Shown here piece after piece: positions 8,959 to 59,652 of a stretch of 64,000 bases of DNA. Location: NCBI GenBank assembly GCA_963920575.1, contig OY986969.1, positions 6,755,076 through 6,819,075 on the forward strand. Direction: 5' to 3'. Below the pieces are notes generated by a model. The model ran no database searches. It saw only the letters and a list, made by a program, of their open reading frames with translations, and was not told the origin of the DNA. The position numbers and the translations under genes were made by a program. Source of the stretch: Narthecium ossifragum (taxonomy: Eukaryota > Streptophyta > Magnoliopsida > Dioscoreales > Nartheciaceae). How positions within the stretch are numbered: position 1 is the first letter of the stretch; each line of letters begins with the position of its first letter.

Positions 8959-9223
8959 CGGTCGACCGTGAGACCCTGACGGTCGACCGTGAGGTGCACA
9001 ATTTATTTTGACAAGCTGCGATCGATCTTCGCATCAACCCTGCGAAGTATTTTCCTTGACAGAGGCTGACGGTCGATGCCACGGTCGATGCGACGGTCGA
9101 CCGTGAGCATCTTACGGTCGACCGTGATGATTTTCGGGCTCCACGGTCGACCGTGAGGATTTGACGGTCGACCGTGAGGATTTTTGAGCGCGACGGTCGA
9201 CCGTGAGATCTGACGGTCGACCA
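8959..9223. repeat. GGTCGACC palindrome array 1 (in a solo LTR)
   Basis: About ten copies of GGTCGACCGT or its half-site ACGGTCGA in 265 bp, e.g. 8960-8969, with the linker 'CTTGACAGAGGCTGACGG' near 9055 that recurs in other arrays. Confidence 0.9.
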
Positions 9224-9567
9224 TCACTATTCACTCAGCACTGCGCACTGGTACGAAAAATATTGTAACTTCCTCTAGAAAACTCGGAATCACAAACCGT
9301 AAAATTCTCCAGAAACTAGACTTCAAGAGCTTTCCAACCATATATGGTACATTATCTGGTTCTTCATGAGCAGGTACAGTTTAATCTTTCAAGTTGACCC
9401 ATTTAATCTTTTCAACTTCTTTTAGCTCCAATTTCCTGCATTTTCCAAACAACTATGTGAAGCACATAAAAGTATAAAAGTAGTGCTAAAGAAGTTGATT
9501 AAGGGTGAAGATATAGCAATTGAGATGGTTTTAAGGTTGTTCAGAGTGCACTTTCATGCACTCATCA

Positions 9568-10051
9568 ACAAACCGAATATATCTTTATCTATGATGATGC
9601 TGCTATATCTTGGAAGTCTATGAAGCAAACATTAATCGCCACTTCTTCAAATCATGCCGAGATATTTGTTATTCATGAAGTAAGTCGAGAATGCGAAAGG
9701 CTGGTGCATGATATCGAAAATGATTTGAAGAACGATGATACTTGCATCATTCAACATATCCAAAATACTTGTGGATTATCTTCAATCATAAATGCCCCGA
9801 TGGTATTATATGAAGATAATGCAACTTACATCACTCAAATTAGAGACGATTATATCCAAAGTGATGAAGCCAAGCATATATCTCCAAAGTTCTACATGTA
9901 TGAGCTCCAGAAGAACGACGATATTGATGTCTAGCAGATACGCTCTAGTGACAACTTTGTCGATTTATTTACAAAGGCACAACCAACAACAACATTCGAA
10001 AGGCTAGTGCATGACAACGGAATACGTCGTCTCAAAGATCTGAGCACTTAA
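9568..10051 (+). pseudogene. Ty1-copia pol remnant: RNase H and C-terminus
   Basis: Continues the frame interrupted at 7935. After the ACAAA duplicate it reads 'ISWKSMKQTLIATSSNHAE', the copia RNase H motif (S-W-K-S-x-K-Q ... S-x-x-A-E), then 'LYEDNATYI', 'KHISPKFYMYELQ' and the typical C-terminal 'VDLFTKAQPTTTFERLVH'. A TAG at 9932 and lesions between 'SRECERL' and 'IENDL' break it. It is followed by the untranslated 3' end and polypurine tract of the same element. Confidence 0.85.
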
Positions 10052-10267
10052 TCTTATCTTACATCTTCATGAGGGGGAGTAATGAATTTAAAAGATATCC
10101 AGTTACTGTACTCTTTTTCCTTCGCTAAGGTTTTTTCCAACTGGGGTTTTCTTGGCAAGGTTTTAATGAGGCGGTCTTGACAACCTGATATCTCTCTAAA
10201 AGAATAGTGCAGTCTTTTCCTTCGCTAGGTTTTTATCCCATAAGGGTTTTTCTTCGCTAAAGGGGAG
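10052..10267 (+). other. 3' untranslated internal end of the copia remnant with polypurine tract
   Basis: Contains 'GAGGGGGAGTAATG' near 10072 and, immediately before the LTR, 'AAAGGGGAG' (10259-10267), a polypurine tract. Two related 'CCTTCGCTAaGGTTTTT' segments (about 10120 and 10218) are visible. Confidence 0.65.
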
Positions 10268-19395: not shown

Positions 19396-21917
19396 TGAGG
19401 ACCCGTACCTCCAACCCGGTCCGACCGCGTTAGGTCGAGGGTCTGGATTTGTGGTTTGGCTCGGTTGGCCCTGGGATGCGATCGGTTGATCGCATCGCTG
19501 TTTTTGACCCCAGTGGCATTTTGGTAAATATGCTCCCTGGTGGTCAGTTTCACACCCGCGTTGCACCCACGGCCTTGGATTGTTGTATGTGGTTGTTTAG
19601 AATGGTTAGGTGGGCCCGGGATCGGAAGATCCCAGCTCGGGCGGGCTAAAGCTCGTTTTCGGGCTCGTTAGCAGGCCGGTGGGCTTTAGGCCCGTTAGTG
19701 GCCTGGTGAGTGGAGGGTGGTTGGAGCAGTTGGCTCCAACCCCCCCTACCTTCTCTCCTCTTCTCTTTCTTTTCCCCGGTTCTTCTCTTCTCCTCCTACC
19801 AGCGTTTCTTCTCTTCTTCTCCCCTTCTTCCCTCTCCTTCGGCTGGGCTTGATCTTGGAGGACTGAGCTTGAGTAGCGGATCTTCACAGTGCGGCTGGCT
19901 GGACGTGTGGAGAAGCTTCATTGCTTGCTCAGGTAGGTGTTTCTACCCCGATCCTTGGATCGGGTTCTACTAGGTTAGGTTGCATATGTGGTTTGCTGTG
20001 GAATGCCATGCTAGGGTGTTGTGTAATCCGTTGTGTATGCAATGTGAATGGTTTGGAGTGTTTGTATGCCAAGATTTCCGTATTCTAACGGCTGGTTTCC
20101 GAAACCTCGCCGTTTCGTCGGTTTTTGGTTTTCCGACCTAAGATGGGATTTAACCATCAAAAACTGGATTTCTTTACATCATTGGATTCTCCACTTCAAA
20201 ATACACTTGTCTACCAAGTTTCATTGTCTTAAAACATGTTTTGATCCTTGAAAACCTAGAAATGGAATTTATGGCATTTTGCGTCGTGAGCTCGACGGTA
20301 GATCGGTGCATCGACCGTCAGGCTCGACGGTCGATCGAGGTATCGACCATCAAGCTTTAATATACTTACTCTGGGCCTGACGGTCAACCGTCGGATCGAC
20401 CGTCCCATCGACCGTCGGGCTCTGTCGAGGTTTTGGCTTCCCAGGGTCGATGCATGGATCGACCGCGGGATCTCCTTCTTTTCCCTTTTACCCGACGGTC
20501 GACCGTCGGATCGACCGTCGCATCGACCGTCAGGCTCTGTTCGATTTTGGGCTTCTCAGGGTCGATGGGTCGATCGACCGTCACCCTTGGTTTTTCTTCG
20601 CATGGGTCTCACGGTCGATCTCTGGATCGACCGTGGCATCGTCCGTGGCCTCACGGTCGATGCACGGATCGACCGTCGCATCGACCGTGAGCGCCTGAAT
20701 AGTGTTTTCTGGCTTTTCTTGGATGGATTTGGTTTGGGATTAGTACCTAAGCATGTAGGGGGATTTGATGGGGTTTTCAAGGGGTTTTCCCTCGGGTTTG
20801 AGAATCGATTCATGTGACTTCCTTTTTGATAAATATATGGCTTTACTTGCATTTAAATACCTGTATGATTGTAATTAAATTCTTAGTTGTTTGCTTAGCC
20901 ATTAACTAGCTATGAGTGCTATTTAATGAGAAATTGTGGAACCTTAGCCTCTTGCCGGCGAGTGCCGAGGGCTATTGTATACCTATTGAACTTATATTGA
21001 TGATGTGACATATAGAGACATCTAAGATAGATGCTTGCCTAGGATCATGCATTGTATGCATTAGAGGCATTTGAGGTTAGGCGGGCGATGTCTTGGGTCG
21101 CCGATTCGAGGCTCTCGGGTAGCTCGGATCTAGCCTTAGGACCGTGGCTGGGTAGTCAGGATTAGGGTGTGATTGTCGATCTGAATCTCTGATGATTGAG
21201 GATTGCGATAGTTGGCTTGAATCATTGTTTGAAGTCTAGAGGTCGTGTCGTCTTTCAAGGCCAAGTGCTAAGGATGCAACCGAGGAGTTCCCGACGTGGT
21301 CCCAATGCAGTGGTATCCCTGCTGGGTAAGGGTGAGTGATCCTGCATGGTTCCGTTCCCCTGTCAGTGCTTAGGGTGATCTTGGTAGAGAGACCAAGAGA
21401 GAGGTTCATGACATGAGCCCTTGGGACATCGGTGGGTTATGGGACCCGTGGCATCCGTTAGACTTGGGCTGGGAGACAACACTGTTGTTGTTTTCCTCCT
21501 TTCAGTGTGCCGTAAAGTAGAACCCTACTGGGCTTTTTGCTCATTCCTACCCGGGCTGCGTTTGCAGGTGCAGGCGGCGGTCCTTCTTCGGTGGAGCCGG
21601 CCGGTTCGGCTTTTGGCGGCGCGAGTACATCCAGAGGCGTCTGAGGTTTTGTTGGAGGATATGACTGTTGTACTTTTTGATATATATATGCATGTTGTAA
21701 CCTTTTTGGAGAACCTTTGGGATGTTGTATAAATTTGTATTTTGGAACTCAGACATTGTAAGACTTGATGCTATATTATGATTGGATCTGTTTAGCTTCT
21801 GGAATAATTTTGTTTAAATTGTTTATCCTTTCCGCTTGTACTGCGCCGGTTGATGATGAATAGTGTTAGGACCCTCACGCCCCGTCCTGGATGGGTTTTC
21901 TGGGTCGGGGTGTGACA
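19396..21917 (+). mobile_element. Family X solo LTR inside the IDD exon
   Basis: About 2.5 kb. Starts TGAGGACCCG (a TGTGAGGACCCG start with eroded first bases) and ends GGGTCGGGGTGTGACA. It is colinear in several blocks with 61556-63741: start, 'TTTCACACCCGCG', 'GGATCGGAAGATCC', 'TCTAGAGGTCGTGTCG', the end. No target duplication is visible (GGACC against ATTCA), so the copy may have recombined or the ends have decayed. A CT-rich leader (19735-19850) and a palindrome array (20293-20690) lie inside. Confidence 0.7.
20293..20690. repeat. GGTCGACC palindrome array 2 (in a family X LTR)
   Basis: About 400 bp of paired ACGGTCGA / TCGACCGT half-sites with spacers of 0 to about 10 bp (e.g. CGGTCGATCGAGGTATCGACC near 20328). 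In several pairs the spacer is itself nearly palindromic. Confidence 0.9.
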
Positions 21918-42123: not shown

Positions 42124-42385
42124 CTCAGAAATTAGTTCTCTGGCTGCGTGGTAGAAGACCAGAGAAGCGATCGACGATGGCGCAAAGGAATAACAGGGGA
42201 AGAACAGAGCAGGGACGTGACGATGGAAGGAGGTTGATGATTAAAGAAGAAAAGATGTGCTAGGAAGTCAGGAACAGACGGATTTAAATAGAGGAGAAAC
42301 TCCAATTTAAATTAAAGTACGAGATCAAGTAGGAGTAGGATTGAAATCCGAGTAGAGTTCCGCTCGAGCAGAAAAACAAGGTTGG

Positions 42386-42708
42386 CGGTCGATCCCACGG
42401 TCGACCGTGGGATAGGGTGATCATGAACTACTATAGCGACGGTCGACCGTGAGAGGGTATCGTAAGCCGACGGTCGATCGACCGTGAGATGCCAACATAC
42501 TCCGATGGTCGATCCGTGCATCGACCCTGAGAGGCTGTTTTCGTGACAGAGACGGACGGTCGATGTACCGGTCGATGCGGCGGTCGACCGTGACTGATAG
42601 GATAGGTATTGACGCGCCGACGGTCGATCGATCCAGCGACCGTGAGAGACTGTTTTTTCGACAGAGCCGGACGATCGATGCACCGGTCGCTGTGGCGGTC
42701 GACCGTGA
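42386..42708. repeat. GGTCGACC palindrome array 3 (Athila 3' region)
   Basis: Half-sites ACGGTCGA/TCGACCGT as pairs, with the linker 'GGCTGTTTTCGTGACAGAGACGG' type at about 42533 and 42648, the same linker as in arrays 1, 4 and 5. Confidence 0.9.
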
Positions 42709-42884
42709 TCAAGAAATTCGATTTGCTAAACAAAATCACAAAAAATCATAGAAAAATCGGAAAAATCATGGAAAAATCCTAAAAATCAAAGAAAATTTTT
42801 CAAAGCTAAGGAAGACTCAAAAAACTGGGTTGCCTCCCAGGAAGCGCGTAATTTTACGTCTTTCGCTCGACGTCCATAAAAGGA

Positions 42885-44678: not shown

Positions 44679-45870
44679 TCAAATAGTCTTGAAAGCAGTC
44701 AAACACGCATCATTGAAGACAAAAGGGACATCCTTTGCTAGTAATTCACATAAGGGTCGAGAAATTTTAGAAAAATCTTTGATGAAGCGGCGGTAGAATC
44801 CAGCATGACCCAGAAAAGAGCGGATTTGACGCACAGAAGTCGGTGGGGGTAATTTAGAAATCAACTCAACTTTAGCCCTATCGACCTCTATACCACGTTT
44901 TGAAACAATGTGCCCTAACACGATTCCATCTTGAACCATGAAGTGACTCTTTTCCCAACTAAGGACAAGATTAGTCTAAATGCATCGATCAAGAACTTTG
45001 GAGAGATTGTCTAAACAAGATTCAAATGAATTTCCAAACACCGAAAAATCATCCATAAAGACTTCGAGAAATTTATCAATCATGTCAGAGAAGATGGCCA
45101 TCATACACCTTTGAAATGTCGCAGGTGCATTACAAAGACCAAAAGGCATCCTACGATAAGCAAAAGTACCGAAAGGGCAAGTAAAAGTAGTGTTCTCTTG
45201 ATCTTGAGGATCAACTGCCACTTGGTTATACCCTGAATATTCATCTAGAAAACAATAATAGCTTTGGTCGGAAAGTCTTTCTAAGATTTGATCAATGAAA
45301 GGAAGAGGGAAGTGATCTTTTCTAGTCAAAGCATTAAGTTTCCTATAATCAATACAAACACGCCATCCTGTAGTTTGGCGCATCAGGATTTGCTCTCCTT
45401 TATCATTTTCTACTACGGTTAGACCAGATTTCTTAGGTACTACCTGCGTAGGGCTGACCCACTGGCTATCAGAAATTGGATATATAATACCCGCATCCAA
45501 CAGTTTCACCACTTCTTTCTTCACTACCTCTTTCATATTCGGATTTAGACGGCGTTGCATTTCCCTAACAGTTTTAGACTCATCCTCTAAGTGAATCTTA
45601 TGCATACAAATCGAGGGATCAATACCTTTCAAATCAGCGACTGTCCAACCTATAGCTTTCCTATGATCCTTAAGAACATTAATAAGTTGACTCTCCCGAT
45701 CAGAAGATAAGGATGAAGAAATGATAATGGAAAGAGTAGAGTTTAATCCAAGGAAAACATATTTTAGAGTTTTAGGTAGTGATTTAAGTTCAAGTTCAGG
45801 TGGTGACTCCAGTGAGGTAGGAGTAGGAGTTGATGCGAGTGATGGAAGGGGTTCAACAACCCAAGAGGTC
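44679..45870 (-). pseudogene. Athila pol: reverse transcriptase with in-frame stops
   Basis: Frame runs from about 45870 through 'LKDHRKAIGWTVADLKGIDP'; RT core 'GWRVCIDYRKLNALTRKDHFPLPFIDQ', 'FGLCNAPATFQRCM' and the catalytic 'FMDDFSVFG' (YxDD-type). TAG at 44976-44978 and TGA at 44679-44681 interrupt it; between them lies the 'RSFLGHAGFYRRFIKDFSKI' connection typical of gypsy RT. Relative to the protease the frame is shifted, with the change falling near 45860-45885. Confidence 0.9.
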
Positions 45871-46981
45871 GATCGGTCGGTCCAGAATCCATTTGTGTTC
45901 TACTATCATCTTTCGATTGTGCAATTTCTAAATTAACATCATCATCACTGTCAGAGTCATAATCATGCAGACCACCGGATAATTTATCAAAAATCATGGC
46001 ATGTGATCTATCATCAATACATTCAGTCAAAATGTCAACATTAAAGTATTCATCATCTTCAGGCTCAGGCAAGCATGCAGTTTTAAAAATATTCAATTTA
46101 ACATGCATGTGACCAAAAGAAACATATATCACACCAGTTCTACAGTTTATGCATGCATTAGCTGTGGCAAAAAAGGGACGTCCTAGGATAATAGGTACAG
46201 TCTTTTTGCAGTGGATAGCAGGTTCCATGTCTAAGACAACAAAGTCCACAGGAAAGAAGAAATTATCCACCTTGACTAAAACATCTTCTAAGATACCCCC
46301 AGGTGTCTTAATGGACCTATCAACTAATTGCAAAATCACAGATGTCTGTTTAAGTTCTCCCATCCCAAATTCTTTATAAAGGTAATAGGGCATAAGGTTC
46401 ACACTGGCACCTAAATCAAGAAGGGCACCATCAATATGATAGTCTCCTATATAACAAGGTATGGTAGGGGTACCATGATCTTTTAGTTTGGGAGGTGTAT
46501 CATGTTTCAAAATTGAACTAACCTGTTCAGTGAGGAAGATCTTTTTAGACACTTTGGATTTAGCCTGGCGTTTATGGGTGCACAGATCCTTAAGAAATTT
46601 GGCATAGGACGGAATCTGTCTAATGGCATCAAGCAGAGGAATGTTGATGTTGACTTGCTTAAAGGTTTCAAGGATTTCTTCGGCAGTTTTTCGGGCTTTT
46701 ATGGTTGAAGAAGGATCCTTAAGAGCTGCTGGGAAAGGAACTTTAGGGATATATTTATCTGGATCAGGCTCTCTAGAATCAGATGTGTCAATATTAGATG
46801 AAAAAGGAGAATCATCTCGGGCTGGACGCTTGGTTGTCGGATCGGGTGTTTGATCATCCAGATTGACAGGTTCACCTATTTGGTTATCGACTGTCTTGCC
46901 ACTTCTGAGGGTCACCACGACTTTGGCACTCTCAAAGTTTTGGCTTTCTACATAGTGCTGGCCTCTGGAGTTTGTCACAGG
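45764..46981 (-). pseudogene. Athila protease region
   Basis: Same frame as gag but after the stop at 46982-46984; no ATG at its start. 'VVVTLRSGK' and 'PFPAALK' are linker motifs seen in Athila-type polyproteins. The aspartic protease has 'ALLDLGASVNLMPYYLY' (D-x-G-A/S core) and 'ILGRPFFATANACIN'. The last 35 residues are out-of-frame sequence caused by the frameshift near 45880. Confidence 0.85.
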
Positions 46982-48514
46982 TTAACTGGGCAAGTGACCT
47001 TCCTCTCTCTTCGACATAGTGTTAGACAGGTGTCCTAGTTGTGTTTCTATTTTAGATATGGCTTGGGAATGGGAATTAACATCGTTCCTTATCAGAGTCA
47101 TTTCATTCTTAAGCTCAGTTTTCATGCTTGTAAGTGCACTGATGATGGTGTTCAAAGCCGGGTCAGAGGATGATTGTGAAAGTATTTGAGGTGCAGTTTG
47201 TTGATATGTAGCAGAGTACCCTGGGTTGGAATTTACAGAAGGTCTAGATGGGTACCGATTTATCGGAGCACTGGAAGAACTACTCTGTCCTTGGAAGGTA
47301 CTCGACTGTTGGGGTGGTCTCCAGCTAAAGTTGGGATGGTTTCGCCAACCTGGATTATACGTATTTGAATACGGATTATTTTCAGGTTTAGTAAAATCAT
47401 ACGCCGCGTTTGCTTGCTCCTGAACGAATTCAGGAAACGATGGAGCCAGTCGACAATCAGTAATGTGATGTTCAAGACTAGAGCATAGTGCACATGTTTG
47501 AGGTTGATCCTGAAATGGTGGAGGTGTAGGTGATTGACTCACTTCCAATTTATCGAACCTTTTGTTAAGGAGGGCTATTTGGGCAGTAATGGCCTCTAAT
47601 CCCGAAAGTTCAAAGGTTCCCTTAGTTGTAGGCCGACTTTTAGGGGTTGTGTATTGTTGTTGGGAATCAATGGAAATTTGTTCATCGAGGTTCCAAAGCT
47701 CATCATCATCCTTATCTAAAGGAATACCCCCACAACAAGCTTCAACCCTAGTTTTACATCTTTCATTATGGCCTCTATAAAACTTATGAGTTAATTCCCA
47801 TTTATCAATATCATGATGAGGACATTTTCGTAAAAGGTCTTTAAATCTATCCCAGGCATCATGAAAAGACTCATCGTCATATTGAACAAAGGTAAGGATT
47901 TCAGTCCGAAATTTCTCAGTTTTAATTATGGGGAAGAATTTCCTTAAAAACGCTTCTTGGAGTTGGTCCCAAGTTGTGATTGAGCGTGGAGGTAAACATT
48001 GAAGCCAGTGTTTAGCTTTATCTTTCAACGAGAAGGGGAAGAGTTTTAACTTAAAGGCATCATCATTAAAATTTTCCATTTTCAGTGTAGCGATGGTATC
48101 GATAAAATTGTGAATGTGGTCATATGGGTCCTCATTATTTAAACCATGAAAGTGGGGTAACATTTGAATCGTTTGGGGTCTAATCTCATAGTGTGAGGCT
48201 GTGATTGCAGGAGGGTCAATGGAAGGGGTGTAAGTGTAGGCAGTGGGCAAGAAGTGATTTCTCAAAGGAATAGGTTGTACCCCACCATTATTATTATTAT
48301 TACCTCCCCTCTCAAGATTAGCATTAGGGTTGACGACATGTCCCTCTTTTTCAGCCATTGTGACAACGGTCTCGTGAATAGATTGCAAGTTACTCAAGGC
48401 CTCCTGATAATTACTCAAAGATTGTTGACCTAAGGCTCTAGCTTTTCGGAGTGTAGTCTCTAATTCTAGATCCAAAGGTTCCAGAGGGGTATTTAAGGAC
48501 CGCCTACCTTGCAT
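46982..48514 (-). CDS. Athila gag
   Basis: 510 codons from ATG (MQGRRSLNTP). Residues about 150-215 are the retrotransposon gag domain ('KDKAKHWLQCLPPRSITTWDQLQEAFLRKFFP'-type; the W-L-x-LP-x-S-I-x-T-W pattern is diagnostic). A single zinc knuckle-like 'CALCSSLEHHITDC' follows at about 345. The C-terminus has a possible coiled coil ('LKNEMTLIRNDVNSHSQAISKIETQLGHL'). Ends in TAA, after which the same frame continues into protease, so the stop probably truncates a former gag-pol frame. Confidence 0.85.
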   Translation of the reverse strand: MQGRRSLNTPLEPLDLELETTLRKARALGQQSLSNYQEALSNLQSIHETVVTMAEKEGHVVNPNANLERGGNNNNNGGVQPIPLRNHFLPTAYTYTPSIDPPAITASHYEIRPQTIQMLPHFHGLNNEDPYDHIHNFIDTIATLKMENFNDDAFKLKLFPFSLKDKAKHWLQCLPPRSITTWDQLQEAFLRKFFPIIKTEKFRTEILTFVQYDDESFHDAWDRFKDLLRKCPHHDIDKWELTHKFYRGHNERCKTRVEACCGGIPLDKDDDELWNLDEQISIDSQQQYTTPKSRPTTKGTFELSGLEAITAQIALLNKRFDKLEVSQSPTPPPFQDQPQTCALCSSLEHHITDCRLAPSFPEFVQEQANAAYDFTKPENNPYSNTYNPGWRNHPNFSWRPPQQSSTFQGQSSSSSAPINRYPSRPSVNSNPGYSATYQQTAPQILSQSSSDPALNTIISALTSMKTELKNEMTLIRNDVNSHSQAISKIETQLGHLSNTMSKREEGHLPS

Positions 48515-48632
48515 GCAAGATCACACCAAAAAGAGAAAAAGAAAACAGAATCTTCGAAGGAGAGGAGAAAATCCGAAAAACAAAGATTGAAAGGAAAGAA
48601 ATTTAAAATAATAAAACTAACCTGACTGCGCT

Positions 48633-48843
48633 CACGGTCGATCTCGCGGTCGACCGTGGATGGCTCGCGGTCGACCGTGGAATTAGGCAACCTTACTTGA
48701 AGACGCGGCGGTCGATCCTCGTATCGACCGTGGGAGGCTGTTTTTGTGACAGAGAGCCACGGTCGATATCGCGGTCGACCGTGGCTATGGCTATCGTAGA
48801 GGGCGACGGTCGATCCGGCGGTCGATGTCGCGGTCGACCGTCA
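48633..48843. repeat. GGTCGACC palindrome array 4 (Athila 5' leader, between PBS and gag)
   Basis: Includes 'CACGGTCGATATCGCGGTCGACCGTGG'-like pairs (split in shorter words: CACGGTCGATATCGCGG, GGTCGACCGTGG) and the linker 'GGCTGTTTTTGTGACAGAG' near 48736. Its translation reads 'TVDREIDRE' and similar, a frequent source of false ORFs. Confidence 0.9.
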
Positions 48844-49010
48844 ATCGTCTTCAACGTAGAATCGTTCCAGCGCTGCAAAAATTCCAGAAAATTGTCAGAA
48901 AAATCCTTAAAAAATGTAAAATAACGTAAATAAAAATAAAAATCAAACTACGCTCAGAAAAACAGTTAAGAGAATATTAAATTGATACTCCGTTGTAAAT
49001 CAAAAGATTT

Positions 49011-49028
49011 TCCCCGGCAACGGCGCCA
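49011..49028 (-). other. Athila primer-binding site, tRNA-Asp
   Basis: Minus strand TGGCGCCGTTGCCGGGGA, complementary to the 3' end of plant tRNA-Asp(GUC), 5 nt from the LTR. Confidence 0.88.
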
Positions 49029-50053
49029 AAAATTGATCGCTCACAAACGTCGTCGTTAAAACGTATGCAAAACGCAATTTAGAAATTTATAAACCTTTCT
49101 TTCAACACTAGATTAATAAGATAGAATAATGGGGAAATACGGGGTCGATCCTCAGGGAAAACTTTGACTAACAAGAAAATCAGAATTAACTCTCAACACT
49201 CTAATCCTAAAACAAAGAAGAATTGATTTGGGGTTTTGGAAATTGATTAATTAAAATTAATTAAGAAAGCGATTAATGAAATGGAAATAGATCGATGAGA
49301 GAAAACCTAGGGATTGCTCAATCCACTTTAGTTTCACTTCCCGTATTCTCTAGTTATCATCTTGTTTCTTATCTCGACATTATGGATTCATAGCTTCTTA
49401 AGCTTACATGAATCCCTAAAATAATGCAATTGTTTCCCTAAGGCATAACCTATCCAAACTTAGCATAGATTGTCTTTGAACTTAATCTGAGTACAACCTA
49501 TCTTCATCTAGCATAGAGTATCTCAAAGGCATCCACAAAAGCAACATGAAAACCATCCTACGAATCTCTACCATCAAGCACAGCAATCAAGTAGGTCTGA
49601 ATGTACGTCGAGGAACTCTGTTCCCTCAACTCTTTATAAAAAAATAACCATATTCATAGGATCATGTCTTTGAAAAGATAACAAGAATCAAACTAGAAAA
49701 TACAAAGAAGCTACACTAAAGCTTCATGAGATCCCTAAGTAGAGAGTTTAGCCACTCATCTTTTGGATGAGATCCATGTATTCGATGAAGAAGGTTAGGG
49801 ATCCACGTCGCATCTCCGTCTTCTTCTCCAATCTGAGTTCCTCTATTTCTCTCTATTGGGGCCTCCCGTTTTCCAGCCACAAAGCCCTTTTTATATCTTA
49901 ATTCCCGGATTAGGGTTTAGGGTTAAGTTAGACCTCAAGTACAACTCGGAATTCCTGGTTCAAGCCTGACAGCTTCTTCCAATCGCGACTGGGCTCAACC
50001 AGTCCGGAATTAGAGAATGAGTACAACACAAAAGATGTAGATTTGGAAGTCTT

Positions 50054-51108
50054 TGTTGATCCTAATCTTGTTTTGATGATGCCAATATACACTAAATGAT
50101 AAAATATATGTTTAATATTTATTACCCCTTTAATTGGAGATATTAATTTCAATATTCAAGTGAGTTTGTACTGACGGTCGATGCAAGGATCGACCGTGGG
50201 AATGGGACGGTCGATCCATGGATCGACCGTGATGAATGGTTCATACATGGCTACATGCGTATTGACGCGACGATCGATCGGTGCATCGACCGTCGGAAGC
50301 GATTTTCTTGACAGAAGCTCACGGACGATGCGACGGTCGATGTGGCGGTCGACCGTGGCGCATATATGAAGAAAAGTCAAGGAGCGACGGTCGATCGGAG
50401 CATGGACCCTGGGAAGCGACCTTCTCAACAGAGGCTCACGGACGATGTAACGGTCGATGTCACGGTCGACCGTGAGAGCGACGGACGATGGGTGGATCGA
50501 CCGTCGAGCAAAAAGGCTGAGTTTTTTATACGTGACGGACGATGGACGGATCGACCGCCAGCAGCACGCAGAGTAAAAAACTAGCCGTTGGAGAGTTGCA
50601 GGGAGCCGTTGGGGCTCATTGTTGAGCTGGTTGAAGCCCATGTATAAGTAGCCTCTTCATGTAAACTTGCCACAACTTTAATCACTATTATTGAGATCAT
50701 TTGAGCAAGTTCTAGGAAAGATTTCTACTTATTCTCCTTGAGCTAAAACCTTTGTAAACCTTCTTCAAGTGTGAAGAAGTATCTTGAGAGTTGTTCAAAC
50801 AGCAAGTGGCTGTGATTGTAAGGTCACCAAGCACCAGGAAGCTTGGAGGAAAAGCTTGTAAGGGATTTGCAAGTAGTGGAACCTCAAGGGGAGCCTTGAG
50901 AGAAGTGGACGTAGACCAAGAGTTGGGTCGAACCACTATAAATCGGTGTCATCTCCCTTACCCTTCTTTCAGTTAATGCTTGCATGCTATTATAGTTAAG
51001 TTTCATTTTGTTTACAAACATTCTAGCTGTTAGATCCCTTTCTATCTGAATTTTCCATTAATCTAGTTTTTCGAAAAGAGTCCAATTCACCCCCCTCTTG
51101 GACCATCA
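50054..51108 (+). repeat. SIRE 5' LTR
   Basis: 1055 bp, TG..CA. TATA-like TGTATAAGTAG at about 50641. A palindrome array fills its first half. Confidence 0.93.
50173..50560. repeat. GGTCGACC palindrome array 5 (SIRE 5' LTR)
   Basis: Includes a perfect 24-bp palindrome at 50207-50230 (arms ACGGTCGATCCA) and two larger units of about 115 bp, each with 'TTGACAGA', 'GCTCACGGACGATG' and a closing GGTCGACCGTG. Confidence 0.92.
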
Positions 51109-51110
51109 AT

Positions 51111-51122
51111 TGGTATCAGAGC
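51111..51122 (+). other. SIRE primer-binding site, initiator tRNA-Met
   Basis: TGGTATCAGAGC, complementary to the 3' end of tRNA-iMet, 2 nt after the LTR. Confidence 0.95.
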
Positions 51123-51172
51123 TAGGTCTCTAATTTAGTGGTGTAACAACCCTTAGAGGATCCTAACTAGAG

Positions 51173-52918
51173 ATGGAAAACCTAGAGGGACAAGCTACCA
51201 ATAGGCCACCCTACTTCAATGGCTCAAATTACAATTATTGGAAAACAAAGATGGAAATCTTTGTGCAATCAATGGATTATGAGGCATGGCTAGTAATTGA
51301 GGATGGACCTTATGTCCCGACCAAAATTATTGATGCAAAAGATGTCCCAAAGACAAAGAGTGACTACACTCCAATTGACCTAAAAAACCTTCAGATTAAT
51401 GCCAAGGCCAAAAGCTTTCTATTTTGTGCCCTTAGCCCTTGTGAATTCAATAGGGTCTCCACATGCAAATCAGCAAAGGAGATATGGGATAAGCTTGAGG
51501 TTACATATGAGGGAACTAGCCGGGTTAAAGAGTCAAAGATAAGTATGCTAGTACATGAGTATGAATTATTTTGCATGAAGAATGATGAGACTATTAGTGA
51601 GATGTTTACACGCTTTAATAACATATTAAATATGCTTGAATCTCTTGGAAGAATTTATGCTAATGATGAGATTGTGAGGAAGATCCTTAGGTGTCTACCT
51701 AAGTCGTGGGATCCCAAAGTGACAGCGATAGAAGAAGCCAAGGATCTATCCAAATTGTCACTAGATGAGCTCATGGGTTCCCTCATGACCTATGAGATGA
51801 ACTTGAAGAGGAGCAACGAAGAGGGAGACAAAAAGAAGAAAACGGTTGGCTTCAAATCATCTAGCAAAGACTCATCCGATTCAAGCGATGGAGATGATGA
51901 TGAGGAGTTGGCGATGATATCAAGGAGAATACAAAAGATCTTCAAACGCCAAGGAGGAAAGAAATTCTTCAAGAAGAAATTCGTCAAAGGTGAAAGGTAT
52001 AATCCCACTTCTTCTAACTCAAATGAAATAATATGTTATGAGTGTAGGAAGCCCGGACACATCAAGTTCGATTGCCCTCAACTCAAGAAGCCTTCAAAGA
52101 AGGAGTTCAATAGAAGGAAGGCAATGGTGGCTACTTGGGGAGAAAGCGATGTTGAGACTTCATCCGATGAAGAAGAACAAGAGGTAGCCAACATATGCCT
52201 AATGGCACATGGAGATGAGGAAGAAGAAGAAAATGAGGTAGAGGATGAGCTTGCATTTGAAGAACTTTTTGATGCTTACCATGCGTTAGCTAATGATTTC
52301 AAATTACTGAAAAAGAAATACTATGCTAATTGTAAGGACTTGAAGAAAGTAGAAGAAGAAAAAGTAGATGCCATGCATAGGATTGGAACCTTAGAAAAAG
52401 AAAACAAATGCATGCTAGAGAACAAGTCTTGTGACACAAATGACACACTTGAGGATGAACTCAAGGACACTCAATATGAGCTCACCATATTGAAGAATAC
52501 AAATTATGATATGCAAAGAGAACTTTTCTTCTTGAGGAAATCCAAGAGAGATCTCACTCTAGAGGTTAATGACCTAAAAATCACTATAGCCAAATTTGTG
52601 AAGAGTAGAGATAAACTAGATGAGATCCTTGATAGCCAAAGGAACTCCTTAAACAAGGAAGGAATTGGCTACAACCCTAGGAAGGTGAACAACCAAAAGA
52701 AGACTAACTTTGTAAAAGCTTCTTCTCATCCTCCTAAGGTAACACAAGGACCTACATGTCATTATTGTTGCAAAGTAGGTCACATTGCACCTAGTTGCTA
52801 TCTCATGAAGAATGTTAATGCTAAGAAAATCTGGTCACCTAGATATTCATCTTCTCTTATGCATAGTACTATTGCAAATGGACCCAAAAAGATTTGGGTA
52901 CCAAAAATCAAGATTTGA
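51173..52918 (+). CDS. SIRE gag
   Basis: 581 codons from ATG. Residues about 10-50 carry the copia gag N-terminal block ('PPYFNGSNYNYWKTKMEIFVQSMDYEAW', DUF4219-like), then a UBN2 gag domain ('AKEIWDKLEVTYEGTSRVKESKISMLVHEYELF', about 100-200). Zinc knuckle CYECRKPGHIKFDC near residue 288 (CX2CX4HX4C), a long acidic/coiled-coil segment (about 325-490) and a second knuckle-like CHYCCKVGHIAPSC near 529. Two knuckles and the long coiled coil suit SIRE gag. Uninterrupted; forms the virus-like particle and packages element RNA. Ends TGA, with pol in another frame beginning about 15 nt later. Confidence 0.92.
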   Translation: MENLEGQATNRPPYFNGSNYNYWKTKMEIFVQSMDYEAWLVIEDGPYVPTKIIDAKDVPKTKSDYTPIDLKNLQINAKAKSFLFCALSPCEFNRVSTCKSAKEIWDKLEVTYEGTSRVKESKISMLVHEYELFCMKNDETISEMFTRFNNILNMLESLGRIYANDEIVRKILRCLPKSWDPKVTAIEEAKDLSKLSLDELMGSLMTYEMNLKRSNEEGDKKKKTVGFKSSSKDSSDSSDGDDDEELAMISRRIQKIFKRQGGKKFFKKKFVKGERYNPTSSNSNEIICYECRKPGHIKFDCPQLKKPSKKEFNRRKAMVATWGESDVETSSDEEEQEVANICLMAHGDEEEEENEVEDELAFEELFDAYHALANDFKLLKKKYYANCKDLKKVEEEKVDAMHRIGTLEKENKCMLENKSCDTNDTLEDELKDTQYELTILKNTNYDMQRELFFLRKSKRDLTLEVNDLKITIAKFVKSRDKLDEILDSQRNSLNKEGIGYNPRKVNNQKKTNFVKASSHPPKVTQGPTCHYCCKVGHIAPSCYLMKNVNAKKIWSPRYSSSLMHSTIANGPKKIWVPKIKI

Positions 52919-52932
52919 TCTTCTATTTGTAG

Positions 52933-54771
52933 GATTGCATGAGATCCAAGATCAAGACCAACTCAAAGGCTAAAAGATGGTACCTTGATAGTGGATGCTC
53001 AAGACATATGACGGGTGAAAGGAGCATGTTCTCAACCCTTCAATCTAAAGATGGAGGAATGGTGACTTTTGGAGATAATGGAAAAGAAAAAATTATTGGC
53101 ATTGGCAATATTGGTAAAACCTCTTCCATTATTATTTAAAATGTTCTCTTAGTTGAAGGTTTGAAACATAACTTACTTAGCATTAGTCAATTATGTGATA
53201 GAGGTAACAAAGTTATTTTTGAAGATTCAAAATGCTATGTTAAGAATGCTCTCAGTGATAAAATCTTGCTAGTAGGACATCGTGATGGTAATATATACAA
53301 ATTTTATCTTAATGATCTTGTTTGCCATGATGATCTATGTCTTAGTGCTTTAAATGAAAATTCTTGGTTATGGCATAGAAGGCTTGGGCATGCTCACATG
53401 GATTTAATATCCAAACTTTCTCGAAAAGACCTTGTTCTTGGACTTCCCAAGATCAAATTTGAGAAAGACACGATTTGTGATGCATGTCAAAGAGGAAAAC
53501 AAGTAAAATCCTTTTTCAAGTCTAAAGATGTAGTTTCTACCACAAGAGCACTAGAACTCATTCATATGGACCTTTTTGGCCCTACTAAACCAACTAGCTT
53601 AGGTGGTAGCTCATATGGATTTGTCTTAGTAGATGACTACACTAGATTCACATGGGTGATTTTCCTTGCACACAAAGATGAAGTCTTTGAGGAATTCACC
53701 AACTTTTGTAGAAGAGTCCAAAATGAGAAAGGTATTCTCATTACATGCATTAGAAGTGATAATGGAGGAGAATTCAAGAATTCCCTTCTAGAAAAGTTTT
53801 GTAATGACAACGGGATTTCCCATAACTTCTCTTCACCTAGAACCCCTCAACAAAATGGTGTTGTTGAAAGGAAAAATAGAACCCTACAAGACATGGCTAG
53901 AACTTTATTATGTGAAAATAATCTTCCTAAGTATTTTTGGGCCGAAGCAATCAATACCTCTTGTCATGTGATAAATAGAGTAACCTTGAGACCCATTTTG
54001 AAGAAAACCCCCTATGAGCTTTGGAAAGGAAGAATTCCAAATATTGGGTACTTTAGAGCTTTTGGTTGCAAATGTTTTATCTTGAACAATGGCAAGGATA
54101 ATCTTGGAAAATTTGATGCTAGATCCGATGAAGGAGTCTTTCTTGGATATTCGGGAAGAAGTAAAAGTTATAGAGTCTTCAATAAAAGGACTTTGGTGGT
54201 TGAAGAATCAATGCATGTGACATTTGATGAAATGATTTTAATTCCTAGTAGAATTGATAATGGTAATGATGAGGTAAACCCAAATGACAAATCAAAAGAC
54301 TTATTGGATGAAACCCAAAATGATGTTGAAGAATTGAATGTTAGATTTGAGGAATCCCTTGAGATTATACCTAGTGATCAACATCATGAGTTGCCAAAGG
54401 ATTGGAAGTATGTATCTTCGCACCCAAAGGAATTAATAATTGGTGAACCATCAAGAGGAATACAAACTAGATCTTCATTAAATACTTGTGCAAATCTAGC
54501 CTTCCTATCTCAAATTGAGCCTAAAACGATAGAGGAAGCACTAGAGGATGATCATTGGATCCTACCAATGCAAGAAGAGTTGAATCAATTTGAAAGAAAT
54601 GAAATTTGGAATTTGGTACCTAGACCTCATGATCATCCCGTTATTGGTACTAAATGGGTTTTTAGAAACAAAATGGATGAATCGGGAACAATTACAAGGA
54701 ATAAAGCTAGACTTGTTGCAAAAGGTTTCAATCAACAAGAAGGAATTGATTTTGATGAAACTTTGCACCGG
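52933..54771 (+). pseudogene. SIRE pol, first part: protease, integrase, start of RT
   Basis: The pol frame opens at 52933. Protease: 'WYLDSGCSRHMTG' near 52978. A TAA at 53137-53139 breaks the frame; the same frame continues at 53140. GAG-pre-integrase/zinc part: 'LWHRRLGHAHMDLI...CDACQRGK'. Integrase core: D in 'IHMDLFGP', D in 'IRSDNGGEF', E in 'NGVVERKNRTL'. RT opens with 'HWILPMQEELNQFERNEIW' and 'TKWVFRNKMDE'. A one-base loss near 54762-54766 shifts the frame in 'FDETxxP', so this part ends in a stop at 54772-54774. These two lesions are the only ones I see in pol. Confidence 0.9.
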
Positions 54772-56048
54772 TAGCTAGACTTGAGGCAATAAGACTACTT
54801 CTAGCTTTTGCATCTTACAAAGATTTCAAATTATATCAAATGGATGTTAAGAGTGCCTTCTTGAATGGTTTACTAAAAGAAGAAGTCTATGTTGAACAAC
54901 CCCCCGGTTTTGAAGACTATAAATTGAGGGATCATGTATTCAAACTCACTAAAGCCTTGTATGGATTAAAACAAGCTCCTAGAGCTTGGTATGAAAGGCT
55001 TAGCAAATTCTTGATGGATAATGATTTTTGTAGAGGAAATATTGATACTACATTGTTTACCAAATCAAAAGGCAAAGATTTGCTCTTGGTTCAAATTTAT
55101 GTTGATGACATTATTTTTTGTTCTACAAATGATAAACTATGTGAAGAATTTGCCACATGCATGCAAAGTGAGTTTGAGATGAGTTTAATGGGTGAACTCA
55201 ATTACTTTCTTGGTTTACAAATCATGCAAACTCGAGGAGGGATCTTTATTAATCAAGCTAAATACACTAGAGACTTACTCAAGAAGTATGATTTTGTAGA
55301 ATCCAAAATCTATAGAACCCCCATGTGTACAACACTAAAACTAGACAAGAATGAAGATGGGAAACCCGTTGAACAAACACTTTATAGAGGGATGATTGGT
55401 TCTCTACTCTATTTGACTGCTAGTAGACCGGACATCATGTTTAGTGTTTGCCTTTGTGCTAGATATCAATCTTGTCCTAAGGAATCTCATTTGGTTGCGG
55501 TCAAGAGGATCTTTAGATATCTAATAGGAACCCAAAATTATGGTTTGTGGTATCCTAGAAGATCATCTTTTGATCTAATTGGCTACTCCGATGCGGACTT
55601 TGCCGGATGTAGACTTGATAGAAAAAGCACAAGTGGTACATGTCACTTTCTTGGTTATGCACTTGTTTCTTGGTTCTCCAAGAAGCAAAATTCAGTTGCT
55701 TTATCCACCGCCGAAGCGGAATATATCGCGGCGGGTAGTTGTTGTGCACAATTGCTTTGGATGAAAATGCAATTGGAAAATTATGACATACATATAGGAA
55801 AAATGCCCATTAGATGTGACAACACTAGTGCCATAAACTTATCTAAAAATCCCATCTTGCATTCTAGAACAAAGCACATAGAAATTAGACATCATTTCCT
55901 TCGTGATCATGCACAAAAAGGAGATATTGCACTTGAGTTTGTTAGCACCGAATATCAAATTGCAGATATTCTAACTAAACCCTTGAGTGAAGACAGAATA
56001 CTCTATCTACTAAGGGAGCTTGGGATGTCCAATGGATGTCCAAAATAA
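54772..56048 (+). pseudogene. SIRE pol, second part: RT and RNase H
   Basis: Continues in the shifted frame: '[14 protein letters not shown]', '[24 protein letters not shown]', '[15 protein letters not shown]', catalytic '[13 protein letters not shown]' (YVDD intact), 'YFLGLQI'. RNase H: '[18 protein letters not shown]', '[10 protein letters not shown]', '[13 protein letters not shown]'; ends '[11 protein letters not shown]...LREL' and TAA. Open over 402 codons, but unlinked from the first part by the frameshift. Confidence 0.9.
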
Positions 56049-56721
56049 AGGAGCTAAAAGGAAAAGGTATGGTCACCTCTTTACCTGCTTTTCATACCAT
56101 ATTCTACTTGAATGCTAAATTTTGGTAAATTAAGTCAATATCATGATTAATGAGTGATTTTTGTCTCATAATATTTAGTTACACGTGCTTGCAAAGATTT
56201 GTGATGTTTTGATTTAAAAATGATTTTAAATTGAATTTCAAAACTCACTTTCTGGGGATGACGGTCGATCCAGCCTTCTTGACGGTCGACCGTGCGTACC
56301 TTCGCACTGGACGGTCGACCGCCAACCTCCTCGGATCGACCGTGGGATGTAACTTTTAAACCCATTGTGTGCCACGATCGACCGCCAACTTCGTTGGATC
56401 GACCGTGCGACAAAATATGTGCGACGGTCGACCGCCAAGTCTTCGGATCGACCGTGCGACGTTTTTTTTTTTTTTTAAACACAATGCTCGCGACGGTCGA
56501 CCGCCAAGTTCCTACGATCGACCGCCACGGCCCGTGTGACAACTTAAGTCGGGGCTTTTTCATCTTTTCCACTCAAATCTCCCCTTATAACTCCCGATCA
56601 AACCCTTCATTCCTCACTGGTTCGACCGTGCCCTAAGTCCTCAAAACGTCTGCAGCTCCTCCTCCTCTCTCTCTCTCAAGCCAATCTCTTCTTCACCACT
56701 CAAAACCCTAACAAGCTGGAG
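56049..56721. other. SIRE spacer between pol and third ORF
   Basis: Holds a palindrome array (56260-56527). The last 100 bp are CT-rich ('CTCCTCCTCCTCTCTCTCTCTC') ahead of ATG 56722, like a plant leader. No gene otherwise. Confidence 0.6.
56260..56527. repeat. GGTCGACC palindrome array 6 (SIRE internal, 3' of pol)
   Basis: Variant in which the closing half-site is often GGTCGACCGCCAA, followed after about 10-15 bp by GGATCGACCGTG; five such units. Confidence 0.9.
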
Positions 56722-57951
56722 ATGCCTCGTACCAAGAATGTTGGTCCTCCTTCACCTGAGGAACCAAGTGCACCTGGGAAACAGAAGAAGGCAGTCTCAA
56801 AGAAGCCATCCGGAGCAAAGAAAGCCAAAGGAGCTCAAGGAGGTTCTTCATCCAATCCTCAACCTACCCCCTCCTACGACGACTACTTCTTCCTGGATAT
56901 GGAGAGGTATAAAACCTGGCCTGATTTTAAGGATAAGTTCGTAGTCTTGGGTAGAGCTTTACAACTGCCTTTAAACAAAAAACAGGTAGTAGAGAAATTC
57001 TTCACTGATATGGGATGGGACAAATTCCTAGAAATGCCTCAATACATCTATCCTGAAATGATTAGGTATTTTTATTGCAATATGAGTGAGGATATAGATG
57101 ATGAGGGATATGTAGCCATTCTTAGCTATGTCTATGGTAATGAAATCAAAATTTCCATAGAATGGTTGAATGAGCTACTTAATGCACCTAATTCAGGAGA
57201 GTGCATTTACTTCACTTCCCATGAGGATCTAAATAGAGCTGATCATGATAAACTAGGGAGAAAGGCAATCCTCAAGCCTCTACTAGTTGAGAAAATACCT
57301 ATAGAACTAAATAGCCTCAACCAACAATTTAGGGAGCTTGCCCAGTTCCTAGGAACAAACCTATTTCCCAAGCTTGGCCATCATGATAATTTGAAACCTA
57401 TCCATGCCTATGTTCTTTCTTGCATGGTTAGGAGAAAACCTCTTAACCTAGGCTATCTAATTATCAAGGAAATGCTAAATCTAAATGCTAGGCAATCACT
57501 TCCTTTTGGGGGGCTCCTAACAAACATTTTCAAAGCCCTAACCCTAAACCTAGCCGATGATGAACGCAAACCCCTTTCTCAACCCTTCAACAAATCCACC
57601 TACAAGAGGATGAAGGCCGCCAAACGAGCTTTAGGCCTCGGTTGGCCTCAGCTCAGTGCCGATGAGGATGATGAGCCTCAAGAAGAGCATGGAGAAGAAA
57701 CTATAGGGGGAGAGCCTTTGCTTGAAGAGCATCAAGGAGAAGCATCTAGTAGCCGAGTTCGTCGTACCATGGCACAAAGGCTTGATGATCTCAAAGCTAG
57801 AATGGGAAGAATGGAACTAAGTCTAGATGACATCAAGTCTTCCCAAGCAACCATCACTGGAGATCAAGCCAAGATGTCTCAGCAACTTGATGATATTTTC
57901 ACCTACATCAAGAATGAATTTCCACCTGGCACTCCTTCAGAAAGCCTCTAG
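56722..57951 (+). CDS. SIRE third ORF ('putative plant transposon protein' domain), function unknown
   Basis: 409 codons from ATG, intact. Basic Lys/Pro/Ser-rich N-terminus (about 1-45, 'KQKKAVSKKPSGAKKAK', a possible nuclear signal), a helical central domain (about 55-300; 'FVVLGRALQLP', 'KFFTDMGWDKFLEMPQYIYPEMIRYFYCNM', 'IHAYVLSCMVRRKPLNLGYLI') and an acidic C-terminus ending in a coiled coil (about 350-395, 'MAQRLDDLKARMGRMELSLDDIKSS'). The central block is the plant-transposon-protein domain that accompanies SIRE and Athila elements. Env-like roles have been proposed for ORFs in this position, but I see no signal peptide or transmembrane helix. Its integrity beside a broken pol is notable. 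Confidence 0.75.
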   Translation: MPRTKNVGPPSPEEPSAPGKQKKAVSKKPSGAKKAKGAQGGSSSNPQPTPSYDDYFFLDMERYKTWPDFKDKFVVLGRALQLPLNKKQVVEKFFTDMGWDKFLEMPQYIYPEMIRYFYCNMSEDIDDEGYVAILSYVYGNEIKISIEWLNELLNAPNSGECIYFTSHEDLNRADHDKLGRKAILKPLLVEKIPIELNSLNQQFRELAQFLGTNLFPKLGHHDNLKPIHAYVLSCMVRRKPLNLGYLIIKEMLNLNARQSLPFGGLLTNIFKALTLNLADDERKPLSQPFNKSTYKRMKAAKRALGLGWPQLSADEDDEPQEEHGEETIGGEPLLEEHQGEASSSRVRRTMAQRLDDLKARMGRMELSLDDIKSSQATITGDQAKMSQQLDDIFTYIKNEFPPGTPSESL

Positions 57952-58480
57952 TGATTGATCCTAATTCTCCATCCTTCTTACCTCTTTTTGATAATGCCAA
58001 AGGGGGAGAAAAAGTGTGGTGTGATGAATGTCAAAGCCCTACATTTCTACATTTCTTACTTTTGTATTTTGAAAAACTTTGTTTTGAATTGAAAGTCCTG
58101 TAAGTTCAAAGTTTTCCAAATGATTTTGAATGAAAGTTGTATGGAAATGTTGGAACCTTTTGAATGAAATGAAGTTGTGTTTGGATAATTGCTTGATGTA
58201 TCAATACAATGTTACTATGTTATAATTCAATATGAAATCACTTCATGAAAGCATAAATGTCATTATTGAATAGAGGTGAACATGCTAAAATCCAAACTAT
58301 TATGTCAACATATCTTGAATGGAACTTTTAATATCATTTTAAAGATATATGACTTGTGTGCATCTTGAAAACTGACTTTAGAACATATTTTTTGAAAGAA
58401 AAGGATGCATTGATTAAGGGGGAGTCAAGATATTTTATCATCACATTTAAAAGGATTGTCATCATCAAAAAGGGGGAGAT
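57952..58480 (+). other. SIRE 3' untranslated region with polypurine tract
   Basis: GGGGGAG-type tracts at about 58000-58012, 58419-58427 and, next to the LTR, AAAAAGGGGGAGAT (58467-58480), the priming tract. T-rich otherwise. Confidence 0.75.
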
Positions 58481-59652
58481 TGTTGATCCTAATCTTGTTT
58501 TGATGATGCCAATATACACTAAATGATAAAATATATGTTTAATATTTATTACCCCTTTAATTGGAGATATTAATTTCAATATTCAAGTGAGTTTGTACTG
58601 ACGATCGATGCAAGGATCGACCGTGGGAATGGGACGGTCGATCCATGGATCGACCGTGATGAATGGTTCATACATGGCTATATGCGTATTGACGCGACGG
58701 TCGATCGGTGCATCGACCGTCGGAAGCGTTTTTCTTGACAGAGGCTCACGGACGATGCGACGGTCGATGTGGCGGTCGACCGTGGCGCATCAATGAAGAA
58801 TGTGAAGAAGCGACGGTCGATCGGTGCATCGACCCTGAGAAGCATTTTTCTTCACAGAGACGGACGGTCGATGCGATGGTCGATGTGGCGGTCGACCGTG
58901 GCGCATATATGAAGAAAAGTCAATGAGCGACGGTCGATCGGAGCATGGACCCTGGGAAGCGACCTTCTCAACAGAGGCTCACGGACGATGTAACGGTCGA
59001 TATCACGGTCGACCGTGAGAGCGACGGACGATGGGTGGATCGACCGTCGAGCAAAAAGGCTGAGTTTTTTATACGTGACGGACAATGGACGGATCGACCG
59101 CCAGCAGCACGCAGAGTAAAAAACTAGCCGTTGGAGAGTTGCAGGGAGCCGTTGGGGCTCATTGTTGAGCTGGTTGAAGCCCATGTATAAGTAGCCTCTT
59201 CATGTAAACTTGCCACAACTTTAATCACTATTATTGAGATCATTTGAGCAAGTTCTAGGAAAGATTTCTACTTATTCTCCTTGAGCTAAAACCTTTGTAA
59301 ACCTTCTTCAAGTGTGAAGAAGTATCTTGAGAGTTGTTCAAACAGCAAGTGGCTGTGATTGTAAGGTCACCAAGCACCAGGAAGCTTGGAGGAAAAGCTT
59401 GTAAGGGATTTGCAAGTAGTGGAACCTCAAGGGGAGCCTTGAGAGAAGTGGACGTAGACCAAGAGTTGGGTCGAACCATTATAAATCGGTGTCATCTCTC
59501 TTACCCTTCTTTCAGTTAATGCTTGCATGCTATTATAGTTAAGTTTCATTTTGTTTACAAGCATTCTAGTTGTTAGATCCCTTTCTATCTGAATTTTCCA
59601 TCAATCTAGTTTTTCGAAAAGAGTCCAATTCACCCCCCCTCTTGGACCATCA
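58481..59652 (+). repeat. SIRE 3' LTR
   Basis: 1172 bp, TG..CA. Longer than the 5' LTR by one 116-bp repeat unit (58791-58906) and one C in the C-run before GACCATCA. TATA-like element near 59184. Confidence 0.93.
58600..59103. repeat. GGTCGACC palindrome array 7 (SIRE 3' LTR), with an extra 116-bp unit
   Basis: Same organisation as array 5 but three instead of two long units; GGTCGACCGTGGCGCAT ends at 58790 and again at 58906. Confidence 0.92.

Follow-up and report, generated by a model that had tools for sequence, protein, structure and literature searches.

How did long terminal repeat (LTR) retrotransposons of unrelated families come to carry the same clusters of a CpG-containing palindrome, and what might these clusters do? 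The question is raised by a 64-kb stretch of the Narthecium ossifragum genome (contig OY986969.1, positions 6,755,076 to 6,819,075; hereafter the window), in which seven such clusters lie in copia and gypsy elements and in a solo LTR. We found that a 91-bp composite module built from the palindrome occurs in at least two copia and at least two gypsy lineages of one genome, for which we use the names SIRE, Athila, Tekay and Tork, presumed from domain order and not from a tree. With moderate confidence, we read the arrays as exchangeable cis-regulatory cassettes, i.e., clusters of putative palindromic DNA-binding sites. How retrotransposons gain or change their regulation, and to what extent host factors are common to unrelated families, is an open question on which such cassettes would bear.

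A palindromic module common to copia and gypsy elements

We define a type-1 half-site as an exact ACGGTCGA or TCGACCGT and a type-1 array as a cluster of such half-sites. The window contains 85 of them, every one inside one of seven clusters, compared to 0.76 ± 0.89 expected (maximum 4) from 100 dinucleotide shuffles of the window. The arrays lie where an earlier reading of the letters alone (the sequence-only reading) had placed them, with one half-site, at 56622, falling just past the end given for its array (56527). Their CpG observed/expected ratio is 1.53-1.81, against 0.78 for the whole window. In the searched genome (379 Mb, 150 contigs), ACGGTCGACCGTG occurs 5488/5587 times and the same pattern read backwards 6/4 times, an approximately thousand-fold enrichment. 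The shuffle expectation, together with this genome-wide reversed control, rules out a chance origin of the arrays, which are as follows.

8959..9223, minus strand: type-1 array with a single 91-bp module (9018-9106), in the LTR of the family that we call X9; the TATA box follows 66 bp downstream
20293..20690, plus strand: type-1 array in a Tekay-like LTR; modules at 20380-20466 and 20495-20582
42386..42708, minus strand: type-1 array of the Athila-like element, between the integrase frame (pol) and the open reading frame (ORF) in the env position; two modules
48633..48843, minus strand: type-1 array in the 5′ untranslated region (UTR) of the Athila-like element, between LTR and gag
50173..50560, plus strand: type-1 array in the SIRE 5′ LTR (50054-51108), lying about 83 bp (counted by eye) before TATAAGTAG; its two modules run antisense to transcription
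56260..56630, plus strand: type-1 array ahead of the env-position ORF of SIRE (the pre-env array); its half-sites are shared with the others, its linker mostly not
58600..59103, plus strand: type-1 array with three modules in the SIRE 3′ LTR (58481-59652), compared with two in the 5′ LTR

The half-sites form head-to-head pairs, as had been described, but the variability of their spacers had been overstated, since most spacings fall on a 12-bp lattice. In the pooled arrays, convergent half-sites have start offsets of 4 (118 pairs), 16 (175) and 28 (63), with a total of 2 pairs at offsets 5-15, and direct repeats are spaced by 12 (140) or 24 (52). A second spacing, 21 for direct (41) and 25 for convergent half-sites (23), is found mainly in the Tork-like, X9 and SIRE pre-env arrays. 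At the next level up, the most frequent unit is the 91-bp module, which consists of three 12-bp cells, a linker with CTCTGT and two further 12-bp cells, and which is present in SIRE-like and Tork-like copia elements, in Athila-like and Tekay-like gypsy elements, in the X9 LTR and in one array at a locus elsewhere in the genome (L038). The shared linker that had been noticed between units is thus real and belongs to this module. When matches to the model (score of at least 39 over at least 66 model positions) were extended to the model ends, 54 of 59 measured 91 bases, and 32 of the 59, chosen by hand so as to leave out indel-bearing or weak-ended modules and the Athila 5′ UTR module, align without internal gaps. 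The distance from the linker to both flanking half-sites is identical in 50 of the 56 linkers found. The module is antisense to transcription in SIRE and sense in the remaining families, as judged from the coding frames or, for X9 and L038, from the TATA box only. Sites with two alternative states (CATCGACCGT/CATCGTCCGT; ACGG/AGGG) vary within the SIRE-like and Tekay-like sets as well as between families.

To compare the linkers alone, the half-sites were masked and cross-family array pairs were measured against 200 shuffles; 11 of 17 pairs exceeded all of them. Among these, the z values reached 15.0 for the SIRE 3′ LTR against Athila and 16.3 for the SIRE 3′ LTR against X9; a further comparison, which included the Tork-like and L038 arrays, gave 14.3 for X9 against Tork-like and 28.6 for the Athila 5′ UTR against L038. 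Significant pairs keep one orientation, except for the SIRE 3′ LTR and the Tekay array, which are significant both ways. The similarity of an Athila module to its best SIRE counterpart (0.86) or Tork-like counterpart (0.85) compares with 0.84 to the neighbour in its own array. As the linker homology persists after masking in most pairs, a single origin of the module, followed by exchange between families, is probable. The common origin that had been proposed for copia and gypsy is therefore supported by the 11 masked pairs, but not by some others, among them most of those with the pre-env array.

These other pairs count against a single origin for every array. The masked linker of the SIRE pre-env array is not significant against other families, X9 excepted, nor is that of the Athila 5′ UTR, X9 or L038 array when each is compared with the Tekay array of the window. 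Because the pre-env array shares half-sites and not the linker, part of the likeness may be due to site convergence. Independent convergent amplification of one half-site in each family could account for this array, whose likeness to most others lies in half-sites alone, and it has a parallel in the boxes of the elements Osr10, Osr8, Vitis and Inga, which are described as nearly identical despite very low homology (PMC2829016). For the 91-bp module, convergence on half-sites alone is contradicted by the linker homology and the fixed spacing across families, and as a general account of the arrays we regard it as highly improbable.

The window does contain a nest, with the SIRE-like element inside the Athila-like one, and a single nested insertion might have been counted as several families, which the sequence-only reading had named as grounds for abandoning its claim. 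However, the two elements each have their own target-site duplication (TSD), and a query of 646 bases spanning flank, array and flank of the Athila-like array between pol and the env-position ORF is matched over its whole length in at least 28 places, i.e., at least 27 besides the window (44 matches from the best 40 of 3663 candidates). Similarly, all 40 main rows of the search with the SIRE LTR (best 40 of 4088 candidates) extend into the array. Nesting or misassignment is thus ruled out for the SIRE LTR arrays and for this Athila-like array, and the probability that the sharing is such an artefact is practically nil.

The carriers of the arrays

Besides the arrays themselves, the window contains the following elements and ORFs.

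7936..9567, minus strand: solo LTR of the X9 family (superfamily unassigned), with TG..CA ends and matching 5-bp flanks (TSD ACAAA)
19396..21917, plus strand: 2.5-kb LTR of a Tekay/Del-like gypsy family, with ends common to loci L021, L025, L027 and others
39329..60068, minus strand: Athila-like gypsy element with TSD GGGGC; the SIRE-like element lies within it
41632-42240: env-position ORF of the Athila-like element, 202 amino acids (aa), no Pfam match
50054..59652, plus strand: SIRE-like copia element with TSD GTCTT; it sits in an LTR of the Athila-like element
56548..57951, plus strand: env-position ORF of the SIRE-like element, stop to stop; Pfam Transposase_32, no other Pfam family at E 0.001
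61556..63741, plus strand: second Tekay-like LTR, with GATCGATC-centred clusters at 61768-61862 and 62255-62465 and zero type-1 half-sites

The SIRE-like element has the gene order of a Sirevirus, with gag, integrase and reverse transcriptase (RT) in copia order followed by an env-position ORF, and at its 3′ LTR it carries AAAAAGGGGGAGAT ahead of TGTTG (polypurine tract and attachment site); its assignment to the SIRE lineage is presumptive and not based on a tree. Its LTRs are alike in 1042 of 1055 aligned bases and differ by 118 gap positions, which corresponds to about one array unit; LTRs of the same two lengths, approximately 1055 and 1170 bp, are found among the best 40 of 4088 candidates genome-wide. 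The arrays that had been assigned to this LTR pair do lie there, and the one assigned to its internal 3′ region lies upstream of the env-position ORF.

In the Athila-like element, gag, RNase H and integrase were recognized by Pfam and RT by its likeness to the Tekay-like RT, with the 202-aa ORF following, an order that matches Ty3/gypsy elements with an additional ORF behind pol; the name Athila is presumptive. Both of its arrays had been placed in untranslated regions. This is correct for 48633-48843 (5′ UTR), but 42386-42708 is not in the 3′ UTR. The X9 LTR interrupts a copia pol remnant, with copia RT and RNase H frames on either side, and its array does sit in a solo LTR of a third family, as proposed. 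The array at 20293-20690, previously left in an unnamed 'family X', is confirmed, and its host is now the 2.5-kb Tekay/Del-like LTR. A locus of the same family, L049, which lies between LTRs L031 and L032 (99.2% alike), contains Retrotrans_gag, RVT_1, RT_RNaseH, Integrase_H2C2 and SH3_Tf2-1 (Pfam). As a Pfam chromodomain gave no match in this internal region, the Tekay/Del name is presumptive.

To see which elements carry type-1 arrays elsewhere, we took the first 100 listed places of an exact array 13-mer (C1:1.40-10.10 Mb), which form 44 groups, and examined 30 groups. Among the 34 arrays classified, 24 are in Tekay-like LTRs, seven in SIRE-like elements (six in LTRs, one pre-env) and two in the LTR pair (L033 and L034) of one Tork-like copia element, whose RT and integrase were recognized in L033 and L050, and one, at L038, has no family; the classification of L017 and L018 is based solely on an LTR start match upstream. 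Hence, 33 of the 34 arrays are inside LTR-retrotransposon sequence, and the remaining one has a TATA box behind it and no pol match in the 4 kb behind the array. When the references had their arrays cut out, no locus from L029 to L048 matched the flanks of two families, and in a self-comparison of the window, matches between the families carrying type-1 arrays were confined to the arrays. The TATA box follows the array end by 66 bp in X9, 107 bp in Tork-like, 124 bp in L038 and 85 bp in one SIRE-like LTR.

Three further observations concern other parts of the window. A frame at 28919-29479 has the cathepsin propeptide domain Inhibitor_I29 and is probably part of a host protease gene amid the retroelements. 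A long GA-rich tandem repeat at 11674-12485 leaves several frames open on both strands, which are mechanical ORFs with no gene evidence, and a tandem array of about four copies of approximately 173-bp units at 34352-35371 also leaves several frames open.

Probable exchange of arrays and proposed mode of recognition

The X9 LTR exists in two versions, which are 86-94% alike outside the array and carry either ACGGTCGA·TCGACCGT or GTCCGATCGATCGGAC, both ending at the TATA box. Among the best 40 of 7530 candidates, at least 18 matched the X9 LTR over its full length (the window's own included), and at least 20 matches started only at query position 632-700 and ran to the end, the commonest start, position 672, being CTATAAATAGG, the TATA box. 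For nine of these 20 partial matches, an upstream piece within query positions 1-336 was also among the matches listed. The middles of eight of these, selected since both flanks appeared in the match listing, were read, and all eight consist of a GTCCGATCGATCGGAC-kind array with the TATA box behind and no type-1 half-site. The two versions thus trade one segment for another of similar size. Genome-wide, GTCCGATCGATCSGAC occurs 5919/5838 times compared to 0/0 for its control, the fully palindromic form being counted on both strands. That an array can be exchanged for one of another palindrome type was absent from the sequence-only reading. One LTR backbone with two alternative arrays offers a natural experiment for binding, methylation, small RNAs and expression.

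These X9 versions also bear on whether the module is a small parasitic repeat that inserts into LTRs. Its varied positions and its occurrence in both orientations relative to transcription would be compatible with such a repeat. However, X9 exchanges similar-sized segments that end at the TATA box, 33 of the 34 classified arrays are in LTR-retrotransposon sequence and the remaining one is followed by a TATA box, which makes the free-living repeat that had been suggested very unlikely.

Tekay-like LTRs also occur with GATCGATC-centred arrays of other outer letters. Besides the type-1 stretch, ten Tekay-like stretches were compared, nine with at least three GATCGATC and one (L052) with none; the evidence for a swap is weaker here than in X9 because the backbones are more diverged. 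At least two GATCGATC are found in one of 44 type-1 arrays (L038) and at least two type-1 half-sites in none of 18 GATCGATC arrays, in a tally that enters an array twice if a locus border divides it. In the window itself, the second Tekay-like LTR (61556-63741) has clusters of a AGATCGATCT-like palindrome, so that the window holds two palindrome types. Other GATCGATC-centred arrays, with GAGCGATCGATCGCTC-like or TTGGATCGATCCAA-like outer letters, were seen at L015:2661-2795, L018:7037-7108, L041:2818-2886 and L038:715-861. By their letters, these suggest that more than two palindrome types exist. A more general idea, which we put forward tentatively and consider somewhat doubtful, is that a few palindromes act as regulatory codes, which unrelated LTR families swap near their promoters: ACGGTCGA·TCGACCGT, GTCCGATCGATCGGAC and, probably, others centred on GATCGATC. 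If this were true, the code of an element would matter more than its lineage, each code would have its own factor, and a swap would provide a new regulator or an escape from silencing.

We then compared the conservation of the half-sites as DNA with that of their pairing as RNA. Across 13 copies of the Tekay-like LTR, 1561 of 2071 copy-to-copy comparisons find a half-site of one copy intact in the other, against 21352 of 73259 for CpG-containing 8-mers of the flanks. Half-site CpGs are retained in 3686 of 3939 comparisons, as opposed to 7977 of 12835 for CpGs of the flanks. Compensatory changes in 323 convergent pairs amount to 7, compared to 7.0 expected, and none of 14 predicted pairs of the module alignment shows a double change, a comparison of low power given that the sites vary little. 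Thus, it looks as if sequence rather than pairing is conserved: the retention of half-sites without an excess of compensatory change speaks for a reader of the DNA, and the two comparisons of paired positions, at low power, give no support to selected RNA pairing.

Alternatively, the palindromes could be RNA hairpins, either packaging or regulatory structures of the element or small-RNA precursors used by the host against it. Four single modules fold better than most of their shuffles (z of -3.7, -2.7, -1.6 and -4.0), and the palindrome clusters in maize Sirevirus LTRs are described as small-RNA hotspots (PMC10760457, PMC5311732). Yet compensatory change is at the chance level, the module alignment has no doubly changed pair, and 169 of 837 half-sites lack a convergent partner at an offset of 4, 16 or 28. 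The packaging hairpins that had been suggested are thus less well supported, and we consider hairpins in general quite unlikely.

Two points speak against recognition of the arrays as promoter-proximal DNA sites. The conservation of the arrays may be inflated, because repeats align mutually and an exact array 13-mer had served to select the loci; and no TATA box was found near the array in the Tekay-like LTRs, which are the commonest carriers, or in the Athila-like or SIRE pre-env stretches.

On the reading as regulatory cassettes, the arrays of LTRs stand ahead of a TATA box and those within elements ahead of gag or of the env-position ORF, and each palindrome would be recognized by a protein acting as a dimer or multimer. 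A host factor is the first candidate for this reader, since the code is common to carriers that differ in coding content; the second would be a factor from one element acting on others. The latter possibility, that an element-encoded protein binds the arrays of several families, follows the example of the VANC proteins, which bind motif arrays of VANDAL transposons (PMC5735166, PMC10398659). By analogy, it gains from the resemblance to that system, in which non-coding motif arrays also differ in type between related elements (PMC5735166), and from the position of one SIRE and one Athila array next to env-position ORFs. However, the two env-position ORFs have no detectable similarity, and the four frames scanned in a single Tekay-like internal region are gag-pol. 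A common env-position protein in SIRE and Athila was dropped on the same ground; a search with the SIRE ORF found no homologue at E 0.001 among 7572 candidates. An element-encoded reader hence appears unlikely, although it deserves some weight.

As for the spread of the cassettes, modules may have moved between families by recombination, for example by template switching between co-packaged RNAs or by ectopic gene conversion, after which the arrays would have grown and shrunk by whole units of approximately 116 bp. A change of palindrome type would alter which factor, or which silencing small RNAs, an element meets.

Palindrome and motif arrays in known elements

Modular change of regulatory regions has a precedent in Tnt1, where related elements are told apart mainly by the U3 regulatory region (PMC1838419). 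That case concerns one copia superfamily in Solanaceae, and the excerpts of its description do not mention palindrome arrays shared with gypsy elements. The VANDAL arrays are alike in being dense clusters of short motifs in non-coding parts of the element, with a type that differs between related elements (PMC5735166, PMC10398659). They differ in that the binding protein is known and element-encoded and that the VANC21 motifs share one orientation, whereas here the motifs are palindromes in LTR retrotransposons and the factor is only postulated.

Closer to our case, the palindromes of maize Sireviruses are also clustered in the cis-region of the LTR (PMC10760457, PMC5311732). They have been read as RNA structure and small-RNA targets, and neither a composite module nor a swap within one family is mentioned in the excerpts of these papers. 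The maize motif CACCGGACNNNGTCCGGTG is reported to be the commonest in structured regions of Copia elements and likewise in those of Helitrons (PMC10760457), which, by analogy, hints at a wider sharing of such motifs.

The closest likeness is to the RM boxes of Sireviruses (Bousios et al. 2010, PMC2829016). These are palindromes built on a CGG-CCG core, which are repeated many times in the LTR ahead of the TATA box, recur ahead of env and form CpG islands. The criterion given there is a minimum of eight boxes in each element, located in the LTR and, where env is present, upstream of it. In our window, the Vitis RM box, CGGTCGACCG, is the core of the arrays, and the SIRE-like element carries arrays both in its LTRs and upstream of its env-position ORF, with 12, 15 and 10 exact half-sites in the 5′ LTR, 3′ LTR and pre-env arrays (half-sites, not boxes as counted in PMC2829016). 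The SIRE arrays have a CpG observed/expected ratio of 1.71-1.81 and a GC content of 0.556-0.564, and in the LTR the TATA box follows the array closely, at about 83 bp, compared to 37 bp on average between island and TATA box in PMC2829016. By sequence and position, the SIRE-like arrays fit the RM-box description. A composite module shared between elements is not mentioned in the excerpts of that study, whereas the arrays here follow a 12-bp lattice and, in one LTR family, another palindrome takes their place. Our literature search, mostly at the level of listings, found no report of a module common to copia and gypsy elements. The letters of the motif, as any of three strings, occur in 613 papers, and among the 20 of these that were listed no title concerns retrotransposons. 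Among the Ty1/copia elements studied, RM boxes were specific to Sireviruses (PMC2829016), whereas the module described here is not confined to them and is also carried by Athila-like and Tekay-like gypsy elements, a Tork-like copia element and the X9 LTR. In summary, a feature described as specific to Sireviruses is extended here to gypsy elements.

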